Of a stretch of 64,000 nucleotides of DNA, positions 2,490 through 59,144 are shown one piece after another. Source of the DNA: Acidobacteriota bacterium. GTDB lineage: Bacteria; Acidobacteriota; Blastocatellia; UBA7656. Within the stretch, counting starts at the first letter, position 1. The number at the start of each line of letters is the position of its first letter. The notes below the pieces were generated by a model, which made no database searches, was not told where the DNA came from, and saw only the letters and a list, made by a program, of their open reading frames with translations. A program made the position numbers and the translations under genes. The stretch spans positions 62,001 to 126,000 of the forward strand of contig JBFMDH010000007.1 of assembly GCA_040754075.1 (NCBI GenBank), given 5' to 3'.

Positions 2490-2633
2490 AAGGATTCAGG
2501 ATTCAGGATTCAGAGCAGAAGAAACGATGAAGGCGGAAGGCTGAACGGTGAACAGAATGCGTTATGTAGTTGTTCATCGTTCATCGTTCATACTTCATAC
2601 TTTCTTTCCCTGAATCCTGTATCCCGTATCCTC
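2490..2633. repeat. Intercistronic inverted heptamer-array element
   Basis: Three GGATTCA heptamers at 2492-2513 face degenerate complementary heptamers at 2609-2633. A second nested layer also has period 7: GTTCATC-type units at 2571-2600 facing (A)CGATGA/AGGCGGA/AGGCTGA/ACGGTGA units at about 2525-2550. On the minus strand the element begins 1 nt after the stop codon of the upstream permease and ends just before the AAGGAAG ribosome site of the downstream one. It would fold into a long imperfect hairpin in the mRNA. Confidence 0.8.
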
Positions 2634-2634
2634 A

Positions 2635-8790: not shown

Positions 8791-11157
8791 ATGAGAAGGC
8801 GAACGCAGAAAACTATTCGTGTGCTCAGGCGACCGATTGCTTTGATTGCTCTCAGTCTTGCGGCACTGCTTACCTTTTTGCCATCAGCGGAGTTTCTTGC
8901 CGCATTCGCTGAAAGCCAGCAAACGAACACTGATGAATTGAACATCACCAGCAATTTAACCGACCAGCCGATCTTGCCCGATGACAAAATCGAATTGCGT
9001 TTGAGCCGTGAGCCGCAAGCAAGCGAAGGACGTCTGGCAGTTCTCATCAATCAAATCGATTTCACCAATCTGTTTACGGTTACCGAGAAAACCCGTACCT
9101 ATAATCGCAAAATTTTGCCCTTGCCTTTGGGCGAATCTCAGCTCACCATTTATCTGATTTCACCGGCAGATGAGTGGCGCGAGATTGCCCGTTTTACCTT
9201 GCAGGTCACCAATCAAAAAAAGGTTGAACCGAAATCTGCCGCATCTCAACCACTGACTTCAACCGAACCGGTTACAACCCCAATTGAAAACAAAGGCAGT
9301 GCGAGCGCCACCACCACTCAACCCGAAGCCAATTCATCGGCTAATGCAACTTCATCAACTCCCGAGGCAACCGGCGCATCCACAACCAACGACGCATCCA
9401 CACCGCAAACCGATGTGCCGGACAAAAAAAGCCGATTTGAAAAACTTGATTTTCTTCCGTCAATCACCATCGGCTTTAAATCGCAATCTGCCGAATCGCA
9501 TTTTCCAGACTCAACACGTCCTCAGCGTCCGACCTTTGCCGATTTAACCTTGCAGGGTTCATTTAAAACCGAAATGGCGCGCGGCATTTTTAACTCGCAA
9601 ACTCAATTCGATATTGCCGGTTCAAGTTTTAAACAAGAGGCATTAAGGTTTGGCACGCTGGGCAACGATGCGCCGAATATCGATTTGTCGAGTTACCTGA
9701 TGCAGTTTCAAATCAGCAAAGCCAAATTTTTTGTCGGGCATACGGGATACGGCAGCAATCGCCATCTGATTAATAATTTCTCAAGTCGCGGCATCACCTT
9801 AACGATTCCCTTCACCACGCGCTTTGATTTTTCCTTTGCGGCACTAAACGGCACCAGCATCGTCGGATTCGATAATTTCATCGGTCTCGATAAACGCAAA
9901 CATCAGATGGTCAGCGGCACATTGGGTACAGAGTTTTTAGCCAAACGACCGGGCGGCGCGCGTTTGGAAATCAGTTTACTGAGCGGTTATCTGTTGCCTG
10001 TCAACAATGTCAATCAGGGAAACGTTAATGATGCAGAGCGCAGTCAGGGGTTGGGTTTTCGCTTCGTTGGCAGCGATCCCAATCAACGATTCCGATTTGA
10101 TGCAGGGTTTACGCGGAGCCGGTTTTTCAATCCTGCGGATGCTCTGCTTAATCAAGGCAACGAGGTCGTGCAAACGCCTAATCTGACACGCAACGCCGAG
10201 TACCTCGAAACCGGAATTGATTTGCTCAAGGATGTCGCCATAACCAAAGATAAAAAGCTGACGTTGACTTTCAACTTCCGACACGAACGGGTTGACCCGC
10301 TCTTTCGTTCGCTCGCCGCTTCGACACAATCTGACAAAATTCAAAATCAATACGAAGCCATCGCCAACCTTGGCGACATCAATATCACGGTTTCCAATTT
10401 ATTGTTTAACGACAACCTGAATGACATCCCTTCGATATTGAAATCGCTGACGCGCGCCCAACGCTACGCCGTCGGAATGCCGCTGCTCTCTCTGTTTGGC
10501 GACCCGGCGAAACCCAACCCCTGGCTACCGCGCATCGCTTATTCATTTGACCGCCTGCATCAATTCGGCGATGCGATTCCTGTCAACGGCGGCTTTGAAA
10601 TCGCCGTCGATTCGATTCCCAATCAATTTGCCGATGTCCATTCGTTTACTGCGGATTGGCAGTTTCAAAAATTCCGCGCGGGCTATCGCTTCAATCGTTC
10701 ATTGCAAAACAACCAGCAAACGGGGCGCGAACTCGCGGATTTACTCAACACCACGAACGCTTTTTCAATCGGCGTGAGTCCCGCCACTGTGCTCGATTTA
10801 AATTTTGAATTCAGCCGCGACAGTGCCAATAACTTTGAACAAAAGCGCATTGATAATGTTTACCGACTGGCTTCAATTATCAACTGGCGCATCGGCGGGC
10901 GTGCGGCGCTTGCCACCAATTTTTCAACCACGCTCAACGGCGACGTAGCCGAAACCACGCGCAATCGCAACATTGATTTCGATATGCAGTTTTCTTATCA
11001 ACTGACGGCGGGCAAAGAGAAATTCAAAAAGTTTTCCAGCAATGCATTTATTCGCTACGTAAATCGCTATGCCCGTTCGCGTGATTTTATTTTTCAGGTC
11101 AACAATCTGACCAAAGCGCAAACCTTGAACATCGGTTTGAGTTTTACTTTCTTTTAG
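8791..11157 (+). CDS. Putative outer-membrane beta-barrel protein with N-terminal Ig-like domain
   Basis: A 788-residue protein. A basic N-terminus and hydrophobic segment (LIALSLAALLTFLPS) form a signal peptide. Residues about 50-145 look like a beta-sandwich (RLAVLINQIDF, QLTIYLIS, REIARFTLQV). Residues about 150-210 are a Ser/Thr/Pro/Ala/Asn-rich linker. From about 220 to the end there are many amphipathic strands with aromatic girdles, and the chain ends in LNIGLSFTFF; a terminal Phe on a final strand is typical of BAM-inserted barrels. A barrel of about 550 residues could have 20 or more strands, so it could be a pore or secretion channel. The stop codon TAG is the first part of a heptamer array. 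Not a TonB receptor: no plug signature seen. Confidence 0.72.
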   Translation: MRRRTQKTIRVLRRPIALIALSLAALLTFLPSAEFLAAFAESQQTNTDELNITSNLTDQPILPDDKIELRLSREPQASEGRLAVLINQIDFTNLFTVTEKTRTYNRKILPLPLGESQLTIYLISPADEWREIARFTLQVTNQKKVEPKSAASQPLTSTEPVTTPIENKGSASATTTQPEANSSANATSSTPEATGASTTNDASTPQTDVPDKKSRFEKLDFLPSITIGFKSQSAESHFPDSTRPQRPTFADLTLQGSFKTEMARGIFNSQTQFDIAGSSFKQEALRFGTLGNDAPNIDLSSYLMQFQISKAKFFVGHTGYGSNRHLINNFSSRGITLTIPFTTRFDFSFAALNGTSIVGFDNFIGLDKRKHQMVSGTLGTEFLAKRPGGARLEISLLSGYLLPVNNVNQGNVNDAERSQGLGFRFVGSDPNQRFRFDAGFTRSRFFNPADALLNQGNEVVQTPNLTRNAEYLETGIDLLKDVAITKDKKLTLTFNFRHERVDPLFRSLAASTQSDKIQNQYEAIANLGDINITVSNLLFNDNLNDIPSILKSLTRAQRYAVGMPLLSLFGDPAKPNPWLPRIAYSFDRLHQFGDAIPVNGGFEIAVDSIPNQFADVHSFTADWQFQKFRAGYRFNRSLQNNQQTGRELADLLNTTNAFSIGVSPATVLDLNFEFSRDSANNFEQKRIDNVYRLASIINWRIGGRAALATNFSTTLNGDVAETTRNRNIDFDMQFSYQLTAGKEKFKKFSSNAFIRYVNRYARSRDFIFQVNNLTKAQTLNIGLSFTFF

Positions 11158-11231
11158 GATTCAGGATTCAGTTAATCGGAAAAGCTCGTTCAGATTAACG
11201 ATAAAAATTCTGAATCCTCAATGCTGAATCC
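11157..11231. repeat. Intercistronic inverted heptamer-array element
   Basis: GGATTCA units at 11157-11171 face complementary TGAATCC units at 11210-11231. A nested 7-bp stem GTTAATC/GATTAAC (11171-11177 with 11193-11199) lies inside. The G of the upstream TAG stop is the first base of the array, and the ribosome binding site AGGAG of the next gene follows 10 bp later. Same unit and architecture as the elements at 2490 and 46205. Confidence 0.8.
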
Positions 11232-14587: not shown

Positions 14588-14700
14588 GATTTGGTTGGTG
14601 CAATGCTTGAGGGTTGAATTAATTTTTTCCTCTGGAGCCGTTTGCAATTGAGGGTATTCGGTCGCAGTTGAGAGAGCGTTTGACCGCGATTATTCAACGA

Positions 14701-14725
14701 AGCAGTCAAAGACTGCTTGTTCAAC
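14701..14725. repeat. Dispersed palindrome, GCGGTC-N2-AGACCGC-TTGTTCAAC family (copy 1)
   Basis: Reads AGCAGTCAAAGACTGCTT then GTTCAAC: an inverted core followed by a conserved tail. A degenerate partial copy (GACCGCGATTATTCAAC) lies just upstream at 14684-14700. Other copies are at 15861, 15939 and, inverted, 59355. The surrounding gap 14588-14784 holds nothing else recognisable. Confidence 0.65.
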
Positions 14726-14784
14726 TTGAGTAAATTGTTTTGCAGATTGCTTTAAACATTGGGCTGCCGATTCTTAATCTGTAA

Positions 14785-14818
14785 AATTAAAAGCCGCGCG
14801 AAATATAATTCGCGCGGC
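14785..14818 (-). terminator. Terminator of the respiratory cluster
   Basis: A 10-bp GC-rich stem (14793-14802 GCCGCGCGAA with 14809-14818) and a 6-nt loop, followed on the minus strand by TTTTAATTTT. It lies 40 bp past the stop of ctaF, the last gene of the act-cta cluster. Confidence 0.85.
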
Positions 14819-14857
14819 ACTCACATAACCAACTACTCAAATTTTACCCAACGGTTT

Positions 14858-18905: not shown

Positions 18906-19754
18906 TTAAACGATTGCCAGGTGCCTGCGACGTCGCATAAAGAAAATCAAAACGGCAACGCCGACGAAGGTCACTCCGCCAAGCAGCCTGATGATATTCA
19001 TAATCACCACGCCATATTTGCCGGTTGCCGGGTCATAGTGAAAACAGAATAGATAAAATTGATCGACCGCCGTACCGATTTTTCCTTCTGAGGCTTCGAC
19101 GAGTCCCAATTTCAAATCTCTCGGTGAATATTCAATGCCGTAAAAATATTTCGACAACTTGCCCTGCGGCGTCAGCACCATAATGGCGCTCGCATGGATG
19201 TATTGTTGCGACGCTTCGTCCCAGCGATAGTTGAAACCGACGGTATCTGCCAGGGCTTTCACCGACGCTTCTTCACCGGTCAAAAAATGCCAGCCATTTT
19301 CCGTGCCTTTACGGTTATAACGTTCCAGATACGCCTGTTTTTTGGCATTGGCGGTTTCCGGTAAATCTCTGGGGTCAAAGCTCACGGCGACGACCTCGAA
19401 TTCTTTCCCGGCATCAAACGACAGAGTTTTCAAACTTCCGGCAACGCCATTGAGTATCTGATTGCAAAGCATCGGACAGGTGTAATAGACCAGCGCCAGC
19501 ACCACCGGACGCTTGCCGAAATAATCGCCAAGACGCACGGCTTTACCCTGTTCATCACGCAACGGCAAATCGAGCGGCACCTGGGTATCCAGCCGCTGCT
19601 CGATAGTGATGTCCTGCAACTGACCGGGCACCTGCCCATCGCGCATCGGTTGGGTTTCCGGCGGCGAAAATGGCGACCGTTGGGCAAAAGACCAAACCGG
19701 AAAGGCAAAAAGCAAAAAGCAAAAGGCAAAAGGCAAAAGGGATTTATGAATCAT
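18906..19754 (-). CDS. SCO1/SenC-family copper chaperone with C-terminal membrane anchor
   Basis: A 282-residue protein from the ATG at 19754 (AAGGGGG upstream); longer frames to 19829 lack a signal peptide. The signal peptide core is PFAFCFLLFAF, encoded by TTTTGCC-type heptamers. The thioredoxin-like domain (about residues 65-235) has the copper ligands CPMLC and a conserved distal His in QYIHASAIMVL. A final hydrophobic helix (about residues 250-272) ends in RRRRH. SCO proteins load the CuA site of subunit II, encoded next. The C-terminal anchor differs from mitochondrial SCO, which is anchored N-terminally. Confidence 0.92.
   Translation of the reverse strand: MIHKSLLPFAFCFLLFAFPVWSFAQRSPFSPPETQPMRDGQVPGQLQDITIEQRLDTQVPLDLPLRDEQGKAVRLGDYFGKRPVVLALVYYTCPMLCNQILNGVAGSLKTLSFDAGKEFEVVAVSFDPRDLPETANAKKQAYLERYNRKGTENGWHFLTGEEASVKALADTVGFNYRWDEASQQYIHASAIMVLTPQGKLSKYFYGIEYSPRDLKLGLVEASEGKIGTAVDQFYLFCFHYDPATGKYGVVIMNIIRLLGGVTFVGVAVLIFFMRRRRHLAIV
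19701..19741. repeat. (GGCAAAA)n heptamer array inside the Sco signal peptide
   Basis: Five to six units GGCAAAA/AGCAAAA in tandem. Because 7 and 3 are coprime, three units encode a 7-residue period (PFAFCLL type), which here forms the hydrophobic core of the Sco signal peptide. A matching array lies in the actE signal peptide. Confidence 0.85.
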
Positions 19755-21505: not shown

Positions 21506-22188
21506 TGATGAGAATCTCCTTTTCCTTCTTTTTGTCCGGCGGCTTCATTGCTTGGCAATTTGGTTTTCTGCTCTCCGGTGAGTTCATCCTGTTTGGTATT
21601 CTGGCTGAGTTGCAAAGCGCGAATGTAAGCCACAATCAGCCAGCGGTCACGTGGTTGAACCTGTGCCGCATAATCGGGCATCGCGCCAAACCCTTTGGTA
21701 ATCACGTCGAAGATGTAACCGGCAGGCGCATTGCGCAATCGGTCGGAATGAAAAGTCGGCGGTTGTTTATAACCGCGTTTGACGACCATCCCCTGCCCTG
21801 AGCCGGTGCGGTCGTGACATACCGAACAATAAATATTGAATCGTTCTTCGCCGCGTTTTAAATCCTCTGCCTTGACCTCGAAAGGAAAGGTGTTGGAAAA
21901 CCCTGTAAATTCGGCTGCGCCCTGAGGCGGGCTGGGGTTGCCGGGTTCATCGGATTTGCCTGTATAAAAAAGCCTGTCATCTTTCAAATGACCGCGCGCG
22001 ACGGTGTTTGCCGGAATCGGTCGCGATGCCGACTGGTCGAATTTGAACCCGTCGAGATTGCTCTTCTCATAAATCTCGTATTTCGGCTGGTCGTGCATAT
22101 CCTGCCGACAAGCCGCTGAGAAAAAGGCAAGAGGCAAAAGGCAAAAGGCAAAAGGCAAAAATCTTTTTTTAGTTAATAATATTTTCAT
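21502..22188 (-). CDS. actE: Alternative complex III subunit ActE (monoheme cytochrome c lipoprotein)
   Basis: About 228 residues from the ATG at 22188; the start is uncertain because only a weak AAGG precedes it. The signal sequence ends in a lipobox, LAFFSAAC, so the mature protein should be lipid-anchored. Its hydrophobic core PFAFCLLPLAF is encoded by TTTTGCC heptamers. One heme site, CSVCHDRTGSGQGM, with probable axial Met in GAMPDYA. ActE probably passes electrons from ActA to the cytochrome c domain of the oxidase. Overlaps the start of actF by four bases. Confidence 0.92.
   Translation of the reverse strand: MKILLTKKRFLPFAFCLLPLAFFSAACRQDMHDQPKYEIYEKSNLDGFKFDQSASRPIPANTVARGHLKDDRLFYTGKSDEPGNPSPPQGAAEFTGFSNTFPFEVKAEDLKRGEERFNIYCSVCHDRTGSGQGMVVKRGYKQPPTFHSDRLRNAPAGYIFDVITKGFGAMPDYAAQVQPRDRWLIVAYIRALQLSQNTKQDELTGEQKTKLPSNEAAGQKEGKGDSHQ
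22121..22161. repeat. (GGCAAAA)n heptamer array inside the ActE signal peptide
   Basis: About five units of GGCAAAA with one GGCAAGA variant. Same unit and reading phase as the array in sco about 2.4 kb away, again forming the hydrophobic core of a signal peptide. Confidence 0.85.
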
Positions 22189-22241: not shown

Positions 22242-22793
22242 CTACCAATCGACAACCGAAACTTCCAGAGCCTTGAAACCATTTAGAAATTTCAACACTT
22301 CGTCTTTATTAAATTTCTGGTCGTAACATTCGACCAACAGAAAGAAATGATTGCGGCTGGCGCGTTCAAACCCCGGCGCATTAAAAATCGGATGATGCGG
22401 GCGCGGCAGTCCGTTTAAACCGAGCATACCGAAAACCGCCGCCAGCGAGGCTCCGAGAATCGTTGTTTCAAAAGTCACCGGCACAAACGAAGGCCAACTG
22501 TGAAAAGGACGCCCGCCAATGTTCAGCGAATAATCAATCACCTGGGTGTAGTATTGCAGCGCATAACCCGCAAGCCCGCCGATGATGCCGCCAAGCAGGA
22601 CGATGAGCGGCAAGCGTCCGCGATGCGGGCTGACCGCTTCGCTGACTTCTTCAATCGGATAAGGCGTATAGGCTTCGATGCGGCGATACCCCGCTTCATA
22701 AGTGGCTTTGGTTGCCGCTAACAAATCCTGCGGATTATCGAACTCGGCAATTACCCCGTAAACTTCGGGCTTTTTTCTAGCAAAGAGCGCCAT
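22242..22793 (-). CDS. actD: Alternative complex III subunit ActD (DUF3341)
   Basis: A 183-residue protein with two central membrane helices (about residues 60-80 and 100-125) and a soluble N-terminal part containing GVIAEFDNPQDLL and ATYEAGYRRIEAYTPYPIEE. These are the hallmarks of DUF3341. The C-terminus ends in KALEVSVVDW. ActD has no cofactor and packs against ActC in solved structures. Its ATG overlaps the actC stop (TAATG), with AAGGAGGAG just upstream, so coupling is likely. Confidence 0.93.
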   Translation of the reverse strand: MALFARKKPEVYGVIAEFDNPQDLLAATKATYEAGYRRIEAYTPYPIEEVSEAVSPHRGRLPLIVLLGGIIGGLAGYALQYYTQVIDYSLNIGGRPFHSWPSFVPVTFETTILGASLAAVFGMLGLNGLPRPHHPIFNAPGFERASRNHFFLLVECYDQKFNKDEVLKFLNGFKALEVSVVDW

Positions 22794-38984: not shown

Positions 38985-41078
38985 TTATTGCGGTAACATA
39001 CAGATCGTGTTATCGCCTAAAACCATTGCGCTAACACGTATCGTCCCATCGCTAAGCAAGGTGCCGTCACAAAGCATTGTCCCATCGGCAATCAATGTCC
39101 CGTCGGCAATCAATGTCCCGTCGGCAATCAATGTTCCGTCAGCTAACATCGTGCCCTGGGTAACCAGCGACCCGCTCGCAAGTTGTGAAACGCTGTTGTG
39201 CGCTAAAACACCTGCGCTTTTGCTGACGGTGCCATAGACATAAAAGGTATCGAGGTAGATAAAACTGCCGGATGCATAGGTGCCATAAAAAAGCGGCGTC
39301 CAGGTATCATATATCCAGTGATACTTTTTCATTAAATCGTCGCCATAGAGGAACACATAATTGGTGATGACCCCTTTACCCCAGTAACAGGTTTGCCCGT
39401 AAATCGTGCTGGTTTGCGTAGGCATCGCAGCAGTCAACATGTTGTCACCGAGATTGGCGATGTTTATCGTATTGGTGTTTATCAGTTTGGCAATTTTAAC
39501 TGCCCCGTCGATATTGATTCTTCCGGCTCCCTGTTCAAGGGTATTGACTCCCGAAAGCGGTTGCGCGGTGTACATTAAAAGGGCTTTAACCAGGCTGACG
39601 GAAAGACCGGGTTTGGCTTGAAAAAGCAAAGCGGCAGCGCCTGTGGCGACAGGCGCTGCCATCGAAGAGCCACTCATATACATCACCTTATCAGCAACAT
39701 TGATATGTGACCCGATTGCTAATGAGGTTGCGGTTTTCAGAATTTTATTGCTGCCCCCGGTATCGTTATTGGATCGCGCGGCGATGATTTTATTCCCCGG
39801 CGCGACCAAATCGGGTTTTATAAAGTTGTCATAATATTTAACGCCCCACGATTCGTAATAACCACGGGTTGGGCCCTTGGAACTATAACTGGCAACGGCA
39901 TCATCGGAACGCGCATCGGTTCCGAACGTATTGAGCGCGCCAACGGTCAAGGCAAACGGTGAAATGCCCGGCGAATTAATCGTGCCATATACTTTTCTTC
40001 CGCTGGTGTCTTTACCGGCATTGCCCGCAGAAGTCACCACCATAATACCGGCATAAAAAGCATTTTCGACGGCATAACAAATCGGGTCATCCCAGTAACT
40101 GTCTTTGGCGACGGTTCCGATGCTCATATTAATCACGCGAAGGTTATAGGTCGCCTGATTTGCTATGCACCAGTCAATTGCCGCAATCACATTGCTGGCG
40201 TTTCCACGACCGGTCGAGTCAATGACTTTCAGATTGATTAGTTTGGCTCCCGGCGCGACGCCGCGATAAGCGCCGTTAGAAACCAGGTTGCTTCCGGCAA
40301 TAATCGAAGCCACATGCGTGCCATGCCCATAAGCGTCCAGCACACTTCCTTCACCGGTGAAATCCTGTGAGTAGACGATGCCGGGATGACCGGTCGAAGC
40401 TTTCAGAAGGTTATGATTGACATCCATGCCGCTATCGAGAACGGCGACGCCTATGCCTGTGCCATCAAGCGTCATTCCGGTTACCGCTGTTCGCACCTGC
40501 GCGGCAGCCGTTGTCGTTTCGACATGCCCGGTGGTTTCGATTTCACGGTCGGGGGAGACGTAAGCGATTTCCGGGTCATTTGCGAGTTGTTCGATTTTTG
40601 AAAAAGGAACCTCGGCGACCAGCACCCCAACCGCGTTGAACGATTTATGCAGTTTACCGCCAAGTCCCGCAAGGTCACTGGCAACCGCGTTGGCGCGCAT
40701 CGAATTCAGGGATTTAAGGTTATTTAAATTCTTTTGGGGAGATAAACTGGAAATCTTTTTACTATCTCTTTGGGAAGCTTCTTGGATTGGATTATTTTGA
40801 AGGTTTTGTAATTTGATGATTACTTTTTCAGGTTTAGCTTCTGTCGATGCGGCTTTTGCGAGACCCGTCAATCGCTCTTTGAATTCAGGAGCAATTTTTC
40901 TTTCAACCTCATCGCCGGATTGGTTTCGGGTTATCCCTCTTCCTTGAACTGTTGGTTGAAAGGCTTTGGTTCCCCCCCCAGGTAAAAAGATCGATGGTAA
41001 ACATAAGCAAGCGATTAAAATTAAAATTATGGCTTCAATCTTCAGTCGCTGCTTACGATTTGTCATTATTCTGCCCAT
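38985..41078 (-). CDS. Secreted subtilisin-like serine protease (S8) with C-terminal hexapeptide repeats
   Basis: A 697-residue protein from ATG 41078, with AGGAG ten bases upstream. Signal segment AIILILIACLCLPSIFL. A propeptide-like domain (about residues 80-190) precedes the catalytic domain with Asp (VAVLDSGMD, about 216), His (YGHGTHVAS, about 253), Asn (SAGNAG) and Ser (MSGSSMAAP, about 473). Asp/His/Ser spacing matches S8A. From about residue 635 there is a run of DGTLIA-type hexapeptides that could form a parallel beta-helix. Exported protease, perhaps surface-retained by the repeat tail. Its stop lies just past the rnhA terminator. Confidence 0.93.
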   Translation of the reverse strand: MGRIMTNRKQRLKIEAIILILIACLCLPSIFLPGGGTKAFQPTVQGRGITRNQSGDEVERKIAPEFKERLTGLAKAASTEAKPEKVIIKLQNLQNNPIQEASQRDSKKISSLSPQKNLNNLKSLNSMRANAVASDLAGLGGKLHKSFNAVGVLVAEVPFSKIEQLANDPEIAYVSPDREIETTGHVETTTAAAQVRTAVTGMTLDGTGIGVAVLDSGMDVNHNLLKASTGHPGIVYSQDFTGEGSVLDAYGHGTHVASIIAGSNLVSNGAYRGVAPGAKLINLKVIDSTGRGNASNVIAAIDWCIANQATYNLRVINMSIGTVAKDSYWDDPICYAVENAFYAGIMVVTSAGNAGKDTSGRKVYGTINSPGISPFALTVGALNTFGTDARSDDAVASYSSKGPTRGYYESWGVKYYDNFIKPDLVAPGNKIIAARSNNDTGGSNKILKTATSLAIGSHINVADKVMYMSGSSMAAPVATGAAALLFQAKPGLSVSLVKALLMYTAQPLSGVNTLEQGAGRINIDGAVKIAKLINTNTINIANLGDNMLTAAMPTQTSTIYGQTCYWGKGVITNYVFLYGDDLMKKYHWIYDTWTPLFYGTYASGSFIYLDTFYVYGTVSKSAGVLAHNSVSQLASGSLVTQGTMLADGTLIADGTLIADGTLIADGTMLCDGTLLSDGTIRVSAMVLGDNTICMLPQ
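39055..39144. repeat. 18-bp tandem repeats encoding DGTLIA hexapeptides
   Basis: Five units of 18 bp within the subtilase gene, two of them identical (39091-39108 and 39109-39126, ATCAATGTCCCGTCGGCA on the plus strand), the others diverged. Each unit encodes one hexapeptide of the protease tail. Copy number can change without a frameshift. Confidence 0.85.
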
Positions 41079-44305: not shown

Positions 44306-44381
44306 CTGAGAAAAGATGAGAGGTGGAGAATAAATCGGAGAAGCCAATATCGCCTCTCTCCCCTTCTCCTTGTCTCCCCTG
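44306..44381. repeat. Intercistronic inverted octamer-array element
   Basis: On the minus strand GGGGAGAC/AAGGAGAA/GGGGAGAG units (44381-44350) begin one base after the punA stop. Pyrimidine octamers (CTTCTCCG, TCCACCTC and similar, 44345-44306) follow and end just before the udk ribosome site. The two arms can pair into an imperfect hairpin. Confidence 0.7.
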
Positions 44382-45252: not shown

Positions 45253-46194
45253 CTATTTCTCTTTCGCATAGGGAATGCCTAAAGCCCGCGGCGGCGTTGC
45301 GCGACCAATGAACCCGGCAAGCACAATCAAAGTTAAAACATAGGGAATGATTTGAATGAACTGCACGGGAATTTGCACAACCCCCTGCATACGAATTGAA
45401 ACCGCTTCGGCAACCCCGAACAACAGACACGCGAGGAATGCGCCGACCGGCTGCCATTTGCCGAAAATCAATGCCGCAAGCGCAATGAACCCGCGCCCCG
45501 CCGTCATATTGCGTGTAAACAATGAATTCTGCCCGATGGATAAATACGCGCCACCGATTGCCGCCAGCAACCCGCTTAGCATCACTCCTGCGTAACGAAT
45601 TTTCGGAACGCTTACGCCCGCCGTATCCGCGGCTTCGGGATTTTCACCAACCGCGCGAAGCCTTAATCCAAACCGCGTTTTAAATAAAACGTAATAAGTG
45701 ACCGGCACCATCAAAAAGGCAAAATAAACAATCGGTTTATGCCCCGATAAAACTTCGTTGACTTTGGGAATCAAATCAATCAGCGGAATATGCCAATCCG
45801 GCAGCGTTTGCTCGCGCGGCAATTGCGGCGTCGCGCCGGTTGAATCGAACATCGCGCCGGACAATAGCGCCGGTATTCCTAAAAACAAAATATTGATTGC
45901 AGTTCCGACGACCACCTGATCGGCTTTGTATTTGATGCAAGCCACCGCATGAATCAATGACACGATCAGTCCGGCAAGGCAGGCACAAAGCAATCCCATC
46001 CAGGGGCTTTGCGTTTTCGCGGTGATGGCTGCGGCAGTGAACGCGCCGGATAGCATCATGCCCTCAAGCGCAATATTAATCACCCCGCTTCGTTCGGAAA
46101 ACAATCCACCCAGCGCCGCCAGGATCAATGGCGTCGAAAGCCGAATCATCGAAGCCAGCAGCGAGATATTGATGATTTGTTGAATTTCTTCCAT
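45253..46194 (-). CDS. Nucleoside/simple-sugar ABC transporter permease (second permease)
   Basis: A 313-residue integral membrane protein of the BPD_transp_2 (RbsC-like) family with about nine helices. It shows APLILAALGGLFSERSGVINIALEGMM at the N-terminus and the EAA-like loop FGLRLRAVGENPEAADTAGV. This pattern is that of the nucleoside importers RnsD/NupQ. It should pair with the permease at 50259 and the ATPase at 52500; the ~4-kb block between the two permeases is an apparent insertion. Located just upstream of punA. Confidence 0.92.
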   Translation of the reverse strand: MEEIQQIINISLLASMIRLSTPLILAALGGLFSERSGVINIALEGMMLSGAFTAAAITAKTQSPWMGLLCACLAGLIVSLIHAVACIKYKADQVVVGTAINILFLGIPALLSGAMFDSTGATPQLPREQTLPDWHIPLIDLIPKVNEVLSGHKPIVYFAFLMVPVTYYVLFKTRFGLRLRAVGENPEAADTAGVSVPKIRYAGVMLSGLLAAIGGAYLSIGQNSLFTRNMTAGRGFIALAALIFGKWQPVGAFLACLLFGVAEAVSIRMQGVVQIPVQFIQIIPYVLTLIVLAGFIGRATPPRALGIPYAKEK

Positions 46195-46204
46195 AGATTT
46201 AAAT

Positions 46205-46358
46205 AAGGATACAGGATTAGGGATTCAGGATTCAGGGTTGGGATAAAACAACTTTGAAATCCAGAGCTGCGGACTTGTCGAGAAATTTTTATCTCACCCC
46301 TCAACACTATTACTCGTTCCTTTATGCTCTGAATCCTGAATCCCGAATCCTGTATCCT
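46205..46358. repeat. Intercistronic inverted heptamer-array element
   Basis: Arms of about 31-33 bp: GGATACA/GGATTAG/GGATTCA units (46205-46237) face their complements (46328-46358). On the minus strand the array starts inside the TAG stop of the serine hydrolase (TAGGATACAGG). It ends 10 bp before the permease ATG. Same unit family as the elements at 2490 and 11157; the 90-bp interior differs. Confidence 0.85.
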
Positions 46359-47469
46359 ACTGCAAAATTACATCAGCAATTTGTCTGGCGAGTTCCACGC
46401 GACTGCCGACGCCTTCGAGGTTCATCATTAAAACCACAGCCATGCCGCGTTCGGGAATCATGTACAAATAGGTCGTCACCCGCGCTTGATTGCCGCCGTG
46501 CGAAACCTCTTGCAGTCCGTTGCGTTCAGCGAGTTGCCAACCTAAGCCATAGTTTGATTCTTTGCCATCTTTCAATTTCTGTTTCGCCCACGCCTGATTG
46601 AGGGTGTCGGTTTTTAACAGTTTGTTTGATTGAATGGCGATGGCAAATCGCGCTAAATCTTCGACGGTTGAAATGAACCCGCCGCCGGGAATTTTATAAC
46701 TGGTATCGGCAAGGTCGGAGTTCTGCAACTGACCGCTGCGGGTTTTCTGATAGCCTTGCGCGCGATTCGCGACAATTGCGAATACATTGTCTTCGCGGAT
46801 GCGTTCCATCGCTGCGGGTTTAAAAACATTCTCGCGCACATAATCGAGATAGGTCATCCCCGATGCGCCTTCGATGACACAACCAAGCAAATTGTATCCA
46901 TAACTCGAATACAAATATTTGCTGCCGGGTTCGTGAAGCAGCGGGTCATCTTTGAAAAACACCAGACTGTCATTGATGGAGTTGTAATGTTTGGTATTTT
47001 CCCCTGCCCCTTGAAAAAACTTGCCGTCTTGAGGTCCATAATGGCGAACGCCGCCGAGATGCGCAAGAACCTGGCGAGTGGTCACTGTCCATTGTTTTTG
47101 CGGATAGGCAGAACAATATTTTTGCACCGGAGCATCCAAATCGAGTTTGCCGCGTTCCGCGAGTTGCAACACCGCCGTTGAAGTGATGGTCTTGGAAATC
47201 GAAGCCAGCCGATACATCGTCGAAGCTTTTGCCGGAATATAATTTTCCAAATCAGCAAGCCCATACCCATTCATCCACGCGAGTTTTTTATCAACGACAA
47301 CGGCTACAGACATTCCCGGAATATTCTCTTTCGCCATCGTCGAAGAAATTGCCGCTTCGATTTTTTTGATTTTTTCGCCGGGAAGATTTGAAATATTTTG
47401 CGCGGCTACCGAAATAGAAACGCTTAGCAAAAGCGATAAAATAACAGCAAAGCCAAGAGGTTTACGCAT
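46357..47469 (-). CDS. Exported serine hydrolase, beta-lactamase class C-like
   Basis: A 370-residue protein with signal peptide (LGFAVILSLLLSVSISVAAQ). Active-site motifs: SISK (SxxK, after MYRLA), the YGYN motif (YxN) in YSSYGYNLLG, and SHGGNQ (HxG replacing KTG). This is the serine beta-lactamase-like / penicillin-binding / esterase family; most members outside AmpC are peptidases or esterases and do not act on antibiotics. ATG overlaps the hicB end by 8 bp. The stop codon is part of the following heptamer array. Confidence 0.88.
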   Translation of the reverse strand: MRKPLGFAVILSLLLSVSISVAAQNISNLPGEKIKKIEAAISSTMAKENIPGMSVAVVVDKKLAWMNGYGLADLENYIPAKASTMYRLASISKTITSTAVLQLAERGKLDLDAPVQKYCSAYPQKQWTVTTRQVLAHLGGVRHYGPQDGKFFQGAGENTKHYNSINDSLVFFKDDPLLHEPGSKYLYSSYGYNLLGCVIEGASGMTYLDYVRENVFKPAAMERIREDNVFAIVANRAQGYQKTRSGQLQNSDLADTSYKIPGGGFISTVEDLARFAIAIQSNKLLKTDTLNQAWAKQKLKDGKESNYGLGWQLAERNGLQEVSHGGNQARVTTYLYMIPERGMAVVLMMNLEGVGSRVELARQIADVILQ

Positions 47470-50258: not shown

Positions 50259-51371
50259 TCAAGCATTGCTGCGGGCAAAGCGTTTAAAACTGCCTCTGAA
50301 GAACGCTTCACAGGCGACGAATAGAATAATAATCGCCTGCAAAATCACCACCCAATCTTTCGATACTTTATCGGTGAAAATGTCTATGAACAGACTGGAA
50401 CGAATCAACGCGCCAAACAGCAAGGCTGAAAACAACACACCTACGGGGTGATTGCGTCCGAGCAAAGCAACGGCGATGCCTGTAAACCCATAGTTTGCGG
50501 AAAACCCGTCATAATAACGATAGCGGTATCCGAGTACATCATTGATGCCGACCATCCCGGCAAGCGCCCCGGATATCGCCATCGCCAGAATGATATTTCG
50601 CGAAATCGAAATGCCGCCGTATTCCGCAGCCGTCGGACTGGTTCCCACAGCGCGAAGTTCGTATCCCCATTTGGTTTTCCACAAAAAAATGTAAACCAAT
50701 ACGCACGCCGCGAGCGCAAAAAAGAAAGCAATGTTGAGCGGCAGACGTTCAGGGATAAATGAAAACAACGCGCCCATTCGCGCGATGTGCGGGCCGACCA
50801 GCGCGCCATCTTGCAATTCGGCAATCGGCAGCGTCTCAAGAATCGGGTCGCCCTGCTTCTTGTAATGATACTGCGTGAAATAGGTCACAATGCCGACGGC
50901 AATGAAATTCATCATGATAGTGGTGATGACTTCGTGTGCGCCGAATTTCGCTTTTAAAACGCCGGGAACCCCTGCCCATACGCCCCCAACCACCACCGCC
51001 GCAATCATCGCCAGTAACGTCACCACTAACCAATTCGTGTTCGGCAGTATCAAGCCAACCCAGGCGGTGGCAAATGCCGCAATCGTCAACTGCCCTTCCG
51101 CGCCAATGTTCAACAGTCCGCATTTGAAGGCTACCGCCACCGCAAGCCCGGTAAAGATGAGCGGCGTCGCATAGAATAACGTGTAGCCGATGCCATCAAT
51201 CGAACCGAAAACACTGGTAAAAAAGAGTTCATAAACCAACAACGGGTTATCGCCAACCATCCAGACGATAACCCCGCCAACCAGAAACGCCGCGACAACA
51301 GCGATGATGGGAAATAACAATGAAGAGGTGAAGAGGTGAAGAGGTGAAGAGGTGAAGGATGTATCTTTCAT
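50259..51371 (-). CDS. Nucleoside/simple-sugar ABC transporter permease (first permease)
   Basis: A 370-residue membrane protein of the BPD_transp_2 family with about ten helices, RnsC/NupP-like (TPLIFTGLAVAVAFKCGLLNIGAEGQL; loop WGYELRAVGTSPTAAEYGGIS). The annotated N-terminus FTSSPLHLFTSS is encoded by octamer repeats, so the ancestral start may lie further in, near FPIIAVVAAFLV. The ATG overlaps the four-helix gene stop (ATGA). Partner permease is 4 kb away at 45253, ATPase at 52500. Confidence 0.92.
   Translation of the reverse strand: MKDTSFTSSPLHLFTSSLLFPIIAVVAAFLVGGVIVWMVGDNPLLVYELFFTSVFGSIDGIGYTLFYATPLIFTGLAVAVAFKCGLLNIGAEGQLTIAAFATAWVGLILPNTNWLVVTLLAMIAAVVVGGVWAGVPGVLKAKFGAHEVITTIMMNFIAVGIVTYFTQYHYKKQGDPILETLPIAELQDGALVGPHIARMGALFSFIPERLPLNIAFFFALAACVLVYIFLWKTKWGYELRAVGTSPTAAEYGGISISRNIILAMAISGALAGMVGINDVLGYRYRYYDGFSANYGFTGIAVALLGRNHPVGVLFSALLFGALIRSSLFIDIFTDKVSKDWVVILQAIIILFVACEAFFRGSFKRFARSNA
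51321..51358. repeat. TGAAGAGG octamer array (left arm of four-helix cassette)
   Basis: Four exact units of TGAAGAGG (51321-51352) plus a partial. The array lies within the N-terminal codons of the permease at 50259. Its inverted counterpart is at 51841-51869, on the other side of the four-helix-bundle gene. Confidence 0.9.
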
Positions 51372-51772
51372 TTATTATTCCCTTTCTGTCCGGTAGGCAA
51401 AACCCAGGTTGATGAATGGCTGATCATTCCCACAAAGGTTGAAATAACTTCATCATAGGTTTGAAATAGCGCCTTGCCTGTTTCTCTTTCCAGATATTGA
51501 CAGCGTACAGCAAATTCAAGCCAGGTTTGAGTTTCTGCTGCTTCTGCTTCGGCATCATTCAATTTACTAATAAAAGCCGCTTCATAGCGACGCTTTCGCC
51601 AGGCTTCGGCGAGGTTTGCGCAAATAGAACGCGACGATCTGCGGATTTGGTCAGTGAATGAATAGATTTCCTCTTTGGGAAAAAGCTTACTCAAATCGAA
51701 AATCAGCATAGATGCTTCACATGCTTTTTTATAAACCTCCAAATCCTGATGCCGGATAATTTTTTTACTCAT
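51368..51772 (-). CDS. Four-helix bundle protein (S23/IVP, Avd-like family)
   Basis: A 134-residue protein, ATG 51772. Typical family sequence: HQDLEVYKKACEASMLIFDL, then IYSFTDQIRRSSRSICANLAEA and the ETQTWLEFAVRCQYL region. The family was first seen in 23S rRNA intervening sequences and is structurally related to Avd of diversity-generating retroelements; free-standing copies have no known function. Here it sits in an operon between dinB and the permease and is enclosed by inverted octamer arrays, which suggests it arrived as a cassette. Confidence 0.9.
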   Translation of the reverse strand: MSKKIIRHQDLEVYKKACEASMLIFDLSKLFPKEEIYSFTDQIRRSSRSICANLAEAWRKRRYEAAFISKLNDAEAEAAETQTWLEFAVRCQYLERETGKALFQTYDEVISTFVGMISHSSTWVLPTGQKGNNK

Positions 51773-51840
51773 CGCTCGAACCCCATCAATCAAGAAACTT
51801 CTTTGCTATCGCACAAATCAACGTAAGCTATTCTGGCAAT

Positions 51841-51869
51841 ATCACCACTTCACCTCTTCCCCCTTCATC
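51841..51869. repeat. Inverted octamer array (right arm of four-helix cassette)
   Basis: Reads TCACCACT, TCACCTCT, TCCCCCT, TCATC on the plus strand: complement of the array at 51321. On the minus strand it begins one base after the dinB stop. Confidence 0.8.
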
Positions 51870-52499: not shown

Positions 52500-54062
52500 T
52501 CAGATTGTCTCCCCTTCTCCCGTTCTCCCCGTCTCCCCTTCTTTCTTCCTCCCGCCCGTCATCATCAAGCCAATCTCTTCCTCGCTGACGGTTTTGGGAT
52601 TGACTTCGCCGACGAGGTGACCGTCGTACATCACGATGACCCGGTCACTCAGGCTCAATACTTCTTCGAGTTCGGCAGAGACCAGCAACACGGCTGCGCC
52701 ACCATCGCGATACTCGATAATTTTTTTGTGAATGAATTCGATTGCCCCGATATCAACGCCGCGCGTCGGTTGGGAAATCAAAATCAATTTCGGATTGATG
52801 TCGAGTTCTCTGGCGACGATGAGTTTTTGTTGATTGCCGCCCGAAAGCGATTTAGCCGAAAGCCCAATGTTGGGCGGACGCACATCGTATTCCTTGACCA
52901 GCCGCTCGGCGCGGTCATCAATGTAATCTTGATTGAGTAAGACCGTACCGCAAACCGGGGCTGCCGCGTGAATGCCTAAAATCGAATTGCTCGCCAGATC
53001 AAACGGCAATAATAATCCGCGACGATGGCGGTCTTCGGGAATGTGCGCGATGCCGCGTTTTTTACGGGTTTTGGTACTGAGTTTATTGAGGTCTTGTCCC
53101 TGAAATAAAATTTCTCCCGATGTCGGATTCTTCAAACCGGAAATCACTTCGATCAATTCGGTCTGCCCGTTGCCTTCGACACCGGCAATGCCAAGTATTT
53201 CGCCGCTACGCACCGAAAACGTCAACTTATCCAAAGCCGGGGTTCCGTCTTTATTGACCAGTGAAAGATTTTTCGCATCCAGCACAATTCCGTTTGGTCT
53301 GGCATCCGCTTTTTCAACGCGCAGCAAAACATCGCGCCCGACCATTAGACTTGCGAGTTTTTCTGCCGTCGCATCTTTAGTAGGTAATTCGCCAACCACC
53401 TTGCCTTGACGCATGACGGTGACGTTATCGGAAAGCGCCAGAACTTCGGCGAGTTTGTGGGTAATGATGATGATAGTTTTGCCTTGCGCTTTCAGTCCGC
53501 GCAAAATGGCAAACATTTCATTGACTTCCTGTGGCGTCAAGACAGCGGTCGGTTCATCAAGAATTAAAATCTGTGCTCCGCGATACAAAGTCTTTAATAT
53601 TTCGACGCGCTGTTGCTGCCCGACACTCAACTCTTCGATGCGCGCATCGGGATTGATTTTCAAACCGTATTGTTCGGAAATTTCGCGAACCCGCTCGCAA
53701 GCTCGCTTGTAATCGATGGCGATGCCGGATGTCGGTTCCGCGCCGAGAATAATATTTTCCGTCACCGTCAACGGGTCAACCAGCATGAAGTGCTGATGCA
53801 CCATTCCGAGTCCGAGGGCGATGGCATCATGCGGATGGCGGATTTTCTGTGGCGTTCCATCGACCAGAATTTCCCCTTCGTCTGCGGTATAAAATCCGTA
53901 AAGAATATTCATGATGGTCGATTTTCCCGCGCCGTTTTCGCCGATGATGGCGTGAATCGACTCAGCAGGAATTTTCAGACTCACATCGTTATTCGCAACC
54001 ACGGTAGCAAAACGTTTGCTGATGCCACGCATTTCGACTGCGTACTTTGTAGATTCGTTCAT
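52500..54062 (-). CDS. Nucleoside/simple-sugar ABC transporter ATPase (two ABC domains)
   Basis: A 520-residue ATPase with two nucleotide-binding domains, like RnsB/NupO and RbsA. Domain 1: GENGAGKST (Walker A, about residue 42), [23 protein letters not shown]. Domain 2: [12 protein letters not shown] (degenerate Walker A), [25 protein letters not shown]. The degenerate second site is normal for this family. The last 15 residues ([13 protein letters not shown]) come from GGGGAGAC-type repeats and are unlike homologues. It drives import through the permeases at 50259 and 45253. Confidence 0.95.
52503..52545. repeat. Purine-rich octamer array in the 3' end of the ABC ATPase gene
   Basis: On the coding strand GGGGAGAC/GGGGAGAA/CGGGAGAA-type units fill the last codons up to the stop at 52500. 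Same unit type as the array after punA. Confidence 0.7.
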
Positions 54063-57442: not shown

Positions 57443-58120
57443 TCAGAATTCTCCCTTGCTCCCTTTCTCTCCTGCTCCCTTTCTTAGACTCACGAGCATA
57501 CGGCTATGAAACTCACGAATCTTGGCGCGTGCCGAACTGATTTGTGAACGCACGGTGGTTTGTGTCGAACCTAAAATCTTTGCGACTTCATTGGTCGAAT
57601 ACCCTTCCAAATCCCTGAGCACAATGGCGGCGCGCTCTTTTTCACTGAGCGATTTCAAGGCGCGATTAATCAAGGCGCGTTCCTGTGTTTTGATGGCTTG
57701 GGCTTCGAGATTATCGCGACCCACGAGGTCAGAAAAATTTCCGGCTGCGTGTTCGGCTTCAAATGAAGTGAATTGACCGACGCTGCCGCGTCTTCGCGCG
57801 ATGTCATTGCACGAATTTACAGCGATGCGATAAAGCCAGCCGGAAAAATCCTGTCGCGTGTCATAACTTTTCAAATATTTAAATGCCTTTAAAAAAGTGT
57901 CCTGAGCGGCATCGCGCGCATCTTCCTGATTGCCAAGCATGCGCCAGGCAACCAACACGATTTTGCGTTGATAACAATGAATGATTTGTTCAAAGGCAGT
58001 GTTATCGCCGGCTTTCACACGTTCAATGACCAGCGCCATCGCGCGCTCGCGCGCGGCGCTCTCTTCAAGTTCAAAGCTGTTGGTCATCAATGCGATTTCG
58101 CAGCCCTCAACAATCATCAT
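57443..58120 (-). CDS. ECF-type RNA polymerase sigma factor
   Basis: A 225-residue sigma-70 family protein with region 2 (FEQIIHCYQRKIVLVAWRML, DARDAAQDTFLKAFKYL, GWLYRIAVNSCNDIARRR) and region 4 (LSEKERAAIVLRDLEGYS, NEVAKILGSTQTTVRSQ). Similar to RpoE. ATG at 58120, AAAGG upstream. The last residues (KGAGEKGSKGEF) derive from AAGGGAGC-type repeats rather than conserved sequence. First gene of sigma, anti-sigma, secretin-like and TlpA set; autoregulation is likely but no promoter was identified. Confidence 0.94.
   Translation of the reverse strand: MMIVEGCEIALMTNSFELEESAARERAMALVIERVKAGDNTAFEQIIHCYQRKIVLVAWRMLGNQEDARDAAQDTFLKAFKYLKSYDTRQDFSGWLYRIAVNSCNDIARRRGSVGQFTSFEAEHAAGNFSDLVGRDNLEAQAIKTQERALINRALKSLSEKERAAIVLRDLEGYSTNEVAKILGSTQTTVRSQISSARAKIREFHSRMLVSLRKGAGEKGSKGEF
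57448..57485. repeat. Purine-rich octamer array in the 3' end of the sigma-factor gene
   Basis: On the coding strand AAGGGAGC-type units in tandem fill the last codons and stop at the termination codon. A short complementary pyrimidine stretch (TTTCTTCTCTCC) follows at 57412-57423 before the anti-sigma ribosome site. Confidence 0.6.
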
Positions 58121-58514
58121 TCAGCCTTTCTCGTGTTTTCATAAACTACTACTTGGCAAACCGGAAAAGCGTTGAGAAATTTTTTACAAAAAATTGTGAG
58201 AAGGCAATGTGAGGATGAAGAGGTGTGGAGGTGTGGAAGTGAAGAGGTGAAGAGGTGAGGGCACGAAAGCCCTATTTTGATTTCAAATTTTGTTGCTTCA
58301 TAAATTCACCTAAAGTCTCTTGTCTACCTTGCCTTTAGACCGCTAGTTCAACCGAGCGGCAATTCATTTTTAACCGCCTATCCCAAGAGCGTGACCATTC
58401 TTGAAGTAAGTTGCCTGAAGCGTTTTCAATGAATGACTTCCAACTCTGGCTGGAGGACGGGATAAATGGGACAAATGAAATGTCACCGCTTCACCGCTTC
58501 ACCGCTTCACCGCT
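58121..58514. repeat. Intergenic inverted octamer arrays between rpiB and the sigma factor
   Basis: Right arm 58483-58514: four exact TCACCGCT units; on the minus strand these read AGCGGTGA and start inside the rpiB stop. Left arm 58211-58260: GAAGAGGT-type units in inverse orientation. The 220-bp interior has no supported gene. Arms match except A/C at one position of the unit. Confidence 0.8.
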
Positions 58515-59144
58515 TCATCTGCAATACTCTTCGCCGATGGCATCGATTTTCGCGACGCGGCGGCGGTGACGGTCTTCCGTGAGGTCAGTCGAAAGCCAGG
58601 CGGTGACGATTTTTTTCATCTGTTCGTTGGAAATCATCTTGCCGCCCAGCGTCAACACATTTGCGCCGTTATGTTCGCGGCTATTTTTAGCGGTCGCTTC
58701 GTCGTAACACATCGCCGCGCGCACCCCCGGCACTTTATTGGCAGCCATGCAGGAACCGATGCCTGCGCCATCAATCATTATTCCAAGTTGGCAAACCTGA
58801 TTGGCAACCGCGCGGGCGACGGCGTGCGCGAAGTCCGGGTAATCGACCGCTTGGGTCGAATAACAACCGAGGTCTTGAAATTCGTGCCCAAGTTCGGTGA
58901 GCACCCGTTTGAGTTCTTCTTTCATTGCATAGCCGCCGTGGTCTGCGCCAAGCGCGATGCGACGACGACTGGCGGCAATGCGGCGACGGGCGCGTTCGAT
59001 TGTAATTTCGCGTTCGCGCACTAAATCCTCGGCAAGCGGCGTGAGTTTCGCGTTTTCGTCAATCCTCAGCGTATCGCCCGCTTTCAGGTTGCGTATATCG
59101 ACTTCCGTAATGACCGCTTTGCCTCTTTCATCAATCAAACTCAT
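58515..59144 (-). CDS. rpiB: Ribose-5-phosphate isomerase B with N-terminal extension
   Basis: A 209-residue protein; RpiB alone is about 145-150. Residues about 62-209 are RpiB/LacAB: ALGADHGGYAMKEEL (substrate-binding Asp-His), DYPDFAHAVA, DGAGIGSCMAANKVPGVRAAM, YDEATAKNSREHNGANVL (catalytic His region). The first 55 residues (ITEVDIRNLKAGDTLRID...LVREREITIERARR) form an extra small domain with Thr-Pro-Leu-Ala-Glu-Asp. Interconverts ribose-5-P and ribulose-5-P, linking nucleoside breakdown to the pentose pathway. The last codon and stop come from the octamer array. Confidence 0.9.
   Translation of the reverse strand: MSLIDERGKAVITEVDIRNLKAGDTLRIDENAKLTPLAEDLVREREITIERARRRIAASRRRIALGADHGGYAMKEELKRVLTELGHEFQDLGCYSTQAVDYPDFAHAVARAVANQVCQLGIMIDGAGIGSCMAANKVPGVRAAMCYDEATAKNSREHNGANVLTLGGKMISNEQMKKIVTAWLSTDLTEDRHRRRVAKIDAIGEEYCR

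Follow-up and report, generated by a model that had tools for sequence, protein, structure and literature searches.

What produces a pair of inverted tandem heptamer arrays that fills the junction between two cistrons, and why does the same architecture recur at other junctions with other repeat units? This question is raised by positions 46205-46358 of a 64,000-nucleotide stretch (the window) of an Acidobacteriota genome, where the arrays lie between a serine hydrolase gene and an ABC permease gene (Table 1). A first-pass annotation, made from the sequence alone, had attributed such sites to a common generating process rather than to the copying of one element. We think it likely that the focal locus belongs, as a copy without an ORF, to a class of hairpin elements that resemble the IVSs of 23S rRNA and are sited in operon junctions.

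Paired heptamer arms in the window and the genome

The focal arms are inverted arrays, each 30 nt long and made of GGATTCA-type heptamers. Read on the minus strand, the 5' array begins inside the TAG stop of the serine hydrolase gene (TAGGATACAGGATTCGGG...) and runs GGATACA-GGATTCG-GGATTCA-GGATTCA. Both the inverted 7-mer arms and their start in the stop codon are therefore as first described, and the array does end near the next ATG, with a measured gap of 11 nt where 10 bp had been given. The predicted long hairpin between two cistrons was borne out by computed folding: the RNA has a folding energy of -69.4 kcal/mol (z = -6.7), which 0 of 200 shuffles equalled.

Table 1. Coordinates of the focal locus and of further features in the window
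Feature	Position	Strand	Remark
Focal 5' arm (coding direction)	46329..46358	-	GGATACA/GGATTCG/GGATTCA heptamers; starts in serine hydrolase TAG stop
Focal hairpin interior	46236..46328	-	93 nt; no ORF found
Focal 3' arm	46206..46235	-	inverted heptamers; end 11 nt before permease ATG
Upstream gene	46357..47469	-	serine hydrolase, beta-lactamase family PF00144
Downstream gene	45253..46194	-	ABC permease PF02653
Nested hairpin	2490..2634	.	outer GGATTCA arms, inner GATGAAC arms; dispersed-family copy
GGATTCA hairpin	11155..11231	+	starts in TAG stop
One-sided array	19683..19740	-	GGCAAAA type, in junction
One-sided array	22122..22160	-	GGCAAAA, in junction; paired GGCAAAA hairpin at the orthologous place in relative G003
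8-mer hairpin	44306..44381	-	GGGGAGAA; after TAA stop; weak ungapped pairing
S23p element, 3' arm	51321..51357	-	TTCACCTC in coding direction
S23p/four-helix-bundle gene	51371..51793	-	23S rRNA-intervening sequence protein, PF05635, inside hairpin; Pfam 1.8e-30, TIGR02436, PDB relatives 2rld and 2gsc
S23p element, 5' arm	51842..51867	-	8-mer GAAGAGGT type (coding direction)
8-mer hairpin	58211..58517	-	GAGGTGAA / TCACCGCT arms; interior >200 nt without gene call

The other sites at which the architecture had been said to recur are all real, with qualifications: the array at 44306 consists of 8-mers that pair only weakly without gaps, and those at 51321-51869 and 58211-58514 are also 8-mers, the former enclosing a protein gene. 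The units do differ between sites as claimed, but the interiors are not all unrelated, as that of 51321-51869 is an S23p gene. The stretch 2479-2634 belongs to a dispersed family with ~75-86% identity. Because all window copies lie between protein genes and none in a 23S rRNA helix, we call them IVS-like and not IVSs. Rfam gave no match in the window. Elsewhere in the window, C-rich 8-mer arrays (TCTCCCCT, CTCCCTTG) at 52507-52553 and 57449-57484 overlap the 3' ends of called minus-strand genes, an 18-nt tandem repeat of a different kind (TGTCCCGTCGGCAATCAA) lies within a coding region at 39043-39141, and 14588-14857, together with 12 other C1/C2 gaps, holds a dispersed non-tandem hairpin family of the GGTTGAG(C/G)AAGCGGTCTTTGACC type, mostly in convergent gaps.

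Statistics for this genome (G000, 7.58 Mb) were drawn from 864 kb with a hexamer-based gene caller of our own, which gives approximate gene starts. Intergenic tandem arrays numbered 41 per 100 kb at period 7, 7.5 at period 8 and at most 0.8 at any other period from 5 to 13; with period 7 dominating, these intergenic units are heptamer simple-sequence repeats (STRR/LSSR). In the relative G004, period 7 accounted for 63 arrays per 100 kb and no other period for more than 3; the period-7 figure for a Gallionella genome (G058) was 38. Stems scoring at least 28 were found in 87 of 465 gaps in G000 compared to none in dinucleotide shuffles, and their arms autocorrelate chiefly at lags 7, 14 and 21. 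A reverse-complement partner was present in the array's own gap for 22 of 49 arrays, compared to 7.6% of other array-bearing gaps and 0.4% of array-free gaps, so the arms are paired beyond chance, as the first-pass annotation had supposed. Over the whole genome the exact 15-mer GGATTCAGGATTCAG has 118 occurrences and its reversed control has none; this control and the shuffles rule out chance or low complexity as the source.

A single genome carries more than 10 different units, and GGATTCA, GGCAAAA, GTAGTCC and GATGAAC have at most two consecutive G, short of the runs of at least three G in the G-quadruplex repeats of Rehm et al. Arms pair somewhat better with their own partner than with unit-family arms at other loci (39.8 vs 31.8), a weak difference obtained on loci preselected for good stems, and no clear outer-to-inner age gradient of units was seen. 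GGATTCA is found in many phyla, while the other units overlap little between genera; we therefore dropped the idea of a unit vocabulary fixed across phyla and claim no universal set. Long stems with CACAGAGA-type 8-mer arms (ACCACAGAGACACCGAGACACAGAGA) at G000 C2:27549-27699, C2:128263-128433 and C2:87821-88174 are probably a further unit family of the same hairpin class. Dispersed stems with 9-nt-like units around AGCGGATGCGGCGGAT were also observed (G000 C1:200923-201408, C1:252963-253299, C2:287778-288214 and others).

Placement, handedness and orthologous junctions

Periodic stems occupied 32 of 349 codirectional, 5 of 68 convergent and 2 of 60 divergent gaps, at median distances of 1 nt from the stop and 15.5 nt from the start. 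We compared this with random placement that keeps 15 nt before the start free. Stop-hugging stems numbered 23 with 20.5 expected (p = 0.06), in roomy gaps 5 of 11 with 1.8 expected (p = 0.017), and the relative G004 showed no stop-codon excess under this test. The stop-specific placement read into the focal site is thus mostly reproduced by random placement; since most stop-hugging follows from elements filling tight operon junctions, a stop-specific process is not needed, and we set stop-codon targeting aside.

One rule of handedness holds across unrelated units, with G exceeding C on the stop side in 27 cases against 3 and C exceeding G on the start side in 23 against 0. An inverted pair is identical on both strands, so this handedness amounts to a G-rich 5' arm. 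The same is true in convergent gaps (23:6), which weakens avoidance of ribosome-binding-like sequence as the cause. Rehm et al. saw a matching handedness for GGGAATC (PMC4692102). The G-rich 5' arm and the strict 7-9-nt unit length are left without explanation by the IVS-like reading. Two loci in another genome (G019:C109:21665-21759 and C131:48785-48879) have the reversed handedness, with the C-rich GGATTCA arm first, unlike G000.

We next compared orthologous junctions between genera, rather than between strains of one species. The permease is 77-88% identical in six relatives, and the junction upstream of it has GGATTCA arms in G000, GGTGATG arms in G003, GGTTTCT heptamers and another hairpin in G004, a 9-mer stem in G006 and a different, weaker inverted repeat in G001; it is 10 nt long in G005, and short and array-free in G002. 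The junction 3' of a MacB-like permease varies likewise: its arms are GTAGTCC in G001 and ATTGAAA in G004, G006 has a long, almost perfect repeat directly after the TGA, G005 has direct heptamer arrays, and G002 and G003 have nothing. A common unit was found at one junction, after the gene at 22242-22793, where G000 and G003 share GGCAAAA. Altogether, four of five orthologous junctions have hairpins in related genera, nearly always with other units, or none, which upholds the earlier statement that different units occupy the same kind of site. Stems scoring at least 26 were present in relatives at 11 of 26 array sides compared to 2 of 26 control sides (p = 0.009). In G005, one hairpin of several hundred bp starts at a stop codon whose aligned counterpart is the stop codon of the array-free G002 junction. 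No transposition event was seen in these comparisons between genera, and the copies read by eye showed no obvious target-site duplication of the kind that marks MITEs. In G005, some GGATTCA arrays extend over hundreds of bp and have higher-order units of 14 nt (L343, L347, L348); several lie at contig ends, and they probably break the assembly; at L345:1707-1990 of the same relative, a GGATTCA-type array with a longer-period superstructure lies within a long ORF (885 aa).

S23p genes between the arms

The gene enclosed at 51371-51793 matches S23p, with a weak Avd match besides TIGR02436; of its relatives with known structures, 2gsc is the product of the Xanthomonas S23p gene XCC0516. Scanning 15,576 ORFs with an HMM yielded ten S23p genes, and all ten had flanking repeat arrays or repeat-like arms, six of them coming from loci preselected by GGATTCA. 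We also ran an unbiased test, in which loci were fetched by PF05635 alone (33 S23p ORFs) and compared to 600 random windows: inverted 7-9-mer arms flank 27 of the 33 compared to 8 of the 600, and arms or arrays flank all 33 compared to 48 of the 600. Among 14 further S23p ORFs, two of which repeat earlier loci, 10 had flanking inverted arms and four, one of them in this genome, lacked clear arms. In G000 as a whole, paired arms flank 12 of 13 S23p genes, and the unit differs from gene to gene in nearly all cases. Among contigs of plasmids and viruses picked solely for S23p, most of them cyanobacterial, 16 of 17 genes had flanking arms; the hosts include Nostoc, Anabaena, Calothrix, Trichormus, Pseudanabaena, Picosynechococcus, Gemmatirosa, Azospirillum and others. 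At three loci of cyanobacterial plasmids (L397, L403, L405) the S23p elements lie inside CRISPR operons, twice as cas6-S23p-cas4 and once as cmr2-S23p-cmr3. A phage origin was considered and rejected, S23p having no match in phage records.

ORF-less hairpins are tied to these elements by their units. Arms of S23p elements match ORF-less hairpins within their own genome in 10 of 12 cases, compared to 2 of 12 in the other genome, and the ORF-less units GGCAAAA, GATGAAC, GTAGGCA, GTAGCCG, GATGAGT, GAAGAGGT and GGGGAGAA recur as S23p-element arms in G000. S23p is flanked by GGATTCA arms in G005 and at loci from other phyla; in G000 itself we found no S23p element whose arms were purely GGATTCA. 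At 51.4 kb the S23p insertion has an ortholog in G001 (70% identical), with the unit GAAGAGGT in G000 and GAAGGGGA in G001; the change affects both arms, and the units therefore evolve in concert. The relative G002 has no S23p, and its 400-kb sample has no 7-mer arrays and periodic stems in 0 of 163 gaps, compared to 37 of 477 and 31 of 229, a co-absence that represents a single lineage. In a 253-kb sample of the Gallionella genome, S23p was not found although arrays are present, so S23p may not be needed everywhere.

Origin of the hairpins and relation to known systems

The proposal of a common generating process stands in so far as the process is more general than the copying of one element; it needs amending in that some copies are related, as in the 2479-2634 family, and not all interiors are filler. 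Because S23p genes lie within such arms here and in other phyla, an IVS-like element class is the best reading of this process, ahead of slippage by itself. Slippage would have heptamers arise in place wherever junction DNA tolerates them, with foldback template switching making the second arm and S23p a passenger. In its favor, a partner was detected for only about half of the arrays, and among longer repeat units heptamers predominate in many bacteria, with polymerase slippage proposed as the cause (cited in PMC4679880 and PMC4692102). Yet slippage predicts neither S23p ORFs between two arms, nor units shared by S23p arms and ORF-less arms within a genome, nor the joint absence of S23p and arrays in G002, and we judge it unlikely. 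We give slightly less credence to intercistronic RNA hairpins selected for tuning the expression of both genes, with structure kept and sequence free. Arms that stay complementary, recurrence at the same junctions with other sequences and avoidance of divergent gaps would all suit such selection, but orthologous junctions often lack any hairpin (G002, G005, G003), one relative (G002) has almost none in its whole sample, and recurrence may only mark where insertion is tolerated. Nor are the hairpins intrinsic terminators, because no U-tract follows directly on a compact stem, the next start lies ~15 nt past it, and interiors span 9-170 nt.

REPIN/RAYT elements are short, dispersed, inverted and dependent on a protein acting in trans, a likeness to the hairpins here, but they have no tandem-repeat arms. 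Mobilisation of this type by Y1 (REP-associated) transposases is in keeping with the dispersal of the hairpins through intergenic DNA and with Y1 genes in all seven genomes of the family. However, G002 has four Y1 matches yet no arrays, and one genome carries more than ten different units. Among the five Y1 genes of G000, which were checked for a link to the hairpins without one being found, a single gene has a recognised unit (GGCAAAA) in its vicinity, and a second has a T-rich run of 7-mers nearby. We rejected Y1/RAYT transposases as movers, since flanks and distribution do not fit, and hold this explanation to be very improbable.

We thus favor, with reasonable confidence, a class of IVS-like hairpin elements, with or without an S23p ORF, that would have settled in operon junctions and be tolerated there. 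A full element consists of a 5' arm of tandem 7-9-mers, an S23p/four-helix-bundle gene and an inverted 3' arm, the focal copy being its ORF-less form. Such copies lie where a transcribed hairpin would harm little, namely the untranslated junction between two operon genes, which parallels the siting of classical IVSs in dispensable helices of 23S rRNA. The transcript would fold into a long stem and, judging from the Coxiella IVS, would probably be cut by RNase III. The arms may grow and be homogenised by slippage or conversion while complementarity is kept, which would account for the turnover of units between genera. S23p is related to Avd, an accessory protein of DGRs, and probably promotes the spread or persistence of copies; the ORF-less hairpins would depend on it in trans. 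Both this mobility and the help in trans are suggested by the Coxiella IVS and the Avd relationship.

No accepted origin exists for the intergenic heptamers reported from cyanobacteria and Xanthomonas, and the S23p/four-helix-bundle genes annotated in many genomes have no assigned function; with S23p genes inside inverted heptamer arms, both puzzles become testable as one system. The element class puts hairpins between cistrons, CRISPR operons included, and many regulatory-looking intergenic hairpins may be element copies or remnants. It is conceivable, though we are doubtful, that the intergenic heptamers of many phyla, cyanobacterial intron heptamer stems and rRNA IVSs form one trans-phylum selfish RNA-hairpin class spread by S23p, perhaps via hairpin reverse transcription, with re-copying of a short template making the 7-9-nt units and their turnover. 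Heptamer arrays and rRNA IVSs were each known already, and what we add is their joining; our literature search, which left most subscription papers outside, found no link between intergenic heptamers and S23p, and we do not regard priority as established.

Among known systems, the Coxiella burnetii 23S rRNA IVS measures 428 nt, with a 28-bp terminal stem and an S23p ORF, and contains tandem heptamers (GACAGAT) in strain-variable number, RNase III cleaving at the first repeat (PMC4990558). The elements here share the long terminal inverted stem (30-bp arms at the focal copy) and, at 51321-51869 and in 12 of the 13 S23p genes of this genome, the S23p gene in the loop with tandem heptamers adjoining it. 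They have arrays in both arms, and unlike IVSs in 23S rRNA helices they lie in protein-coding operon junctions and are mostly ORF-less; RNase III cutting, shown for Coxiella (PMC4990558), is here a presumed step. The GGGAATC and GGGGA(C/T)T heptamers of Xanthomonas and Nostoc (Rehm et al. 2015, PMC4692102) are similarly intergenic, often in inverted pairs between codirectional genes, with the G-rich strand after stops, the C-rich strand before starts and few copies between divergent genes. That paper, which does not mention S23p, describes one G-quadruplex-forming unit type per organism, whereas here there are many units, most without G-tracts of three. In the Nostoc trnL intron, the P6b stem is built of 7-nt repeats whose unit class has switched repeatedly (PMC4476775). 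As in our elements, these cyanobacterial STRR heptamers pair in a stem and their unit class is replaced in place among related lineages; unlike our elements they sit in an intron stem, and the text consulted describes no S23p link. The Beggiatoaceae TAACTGA repeats (PMC4679880) also form intergenic heptamer arrays in distant phyla, some overlapping stop codons, but they are direct repeats before start codons, with only one inverted case and no S23p.
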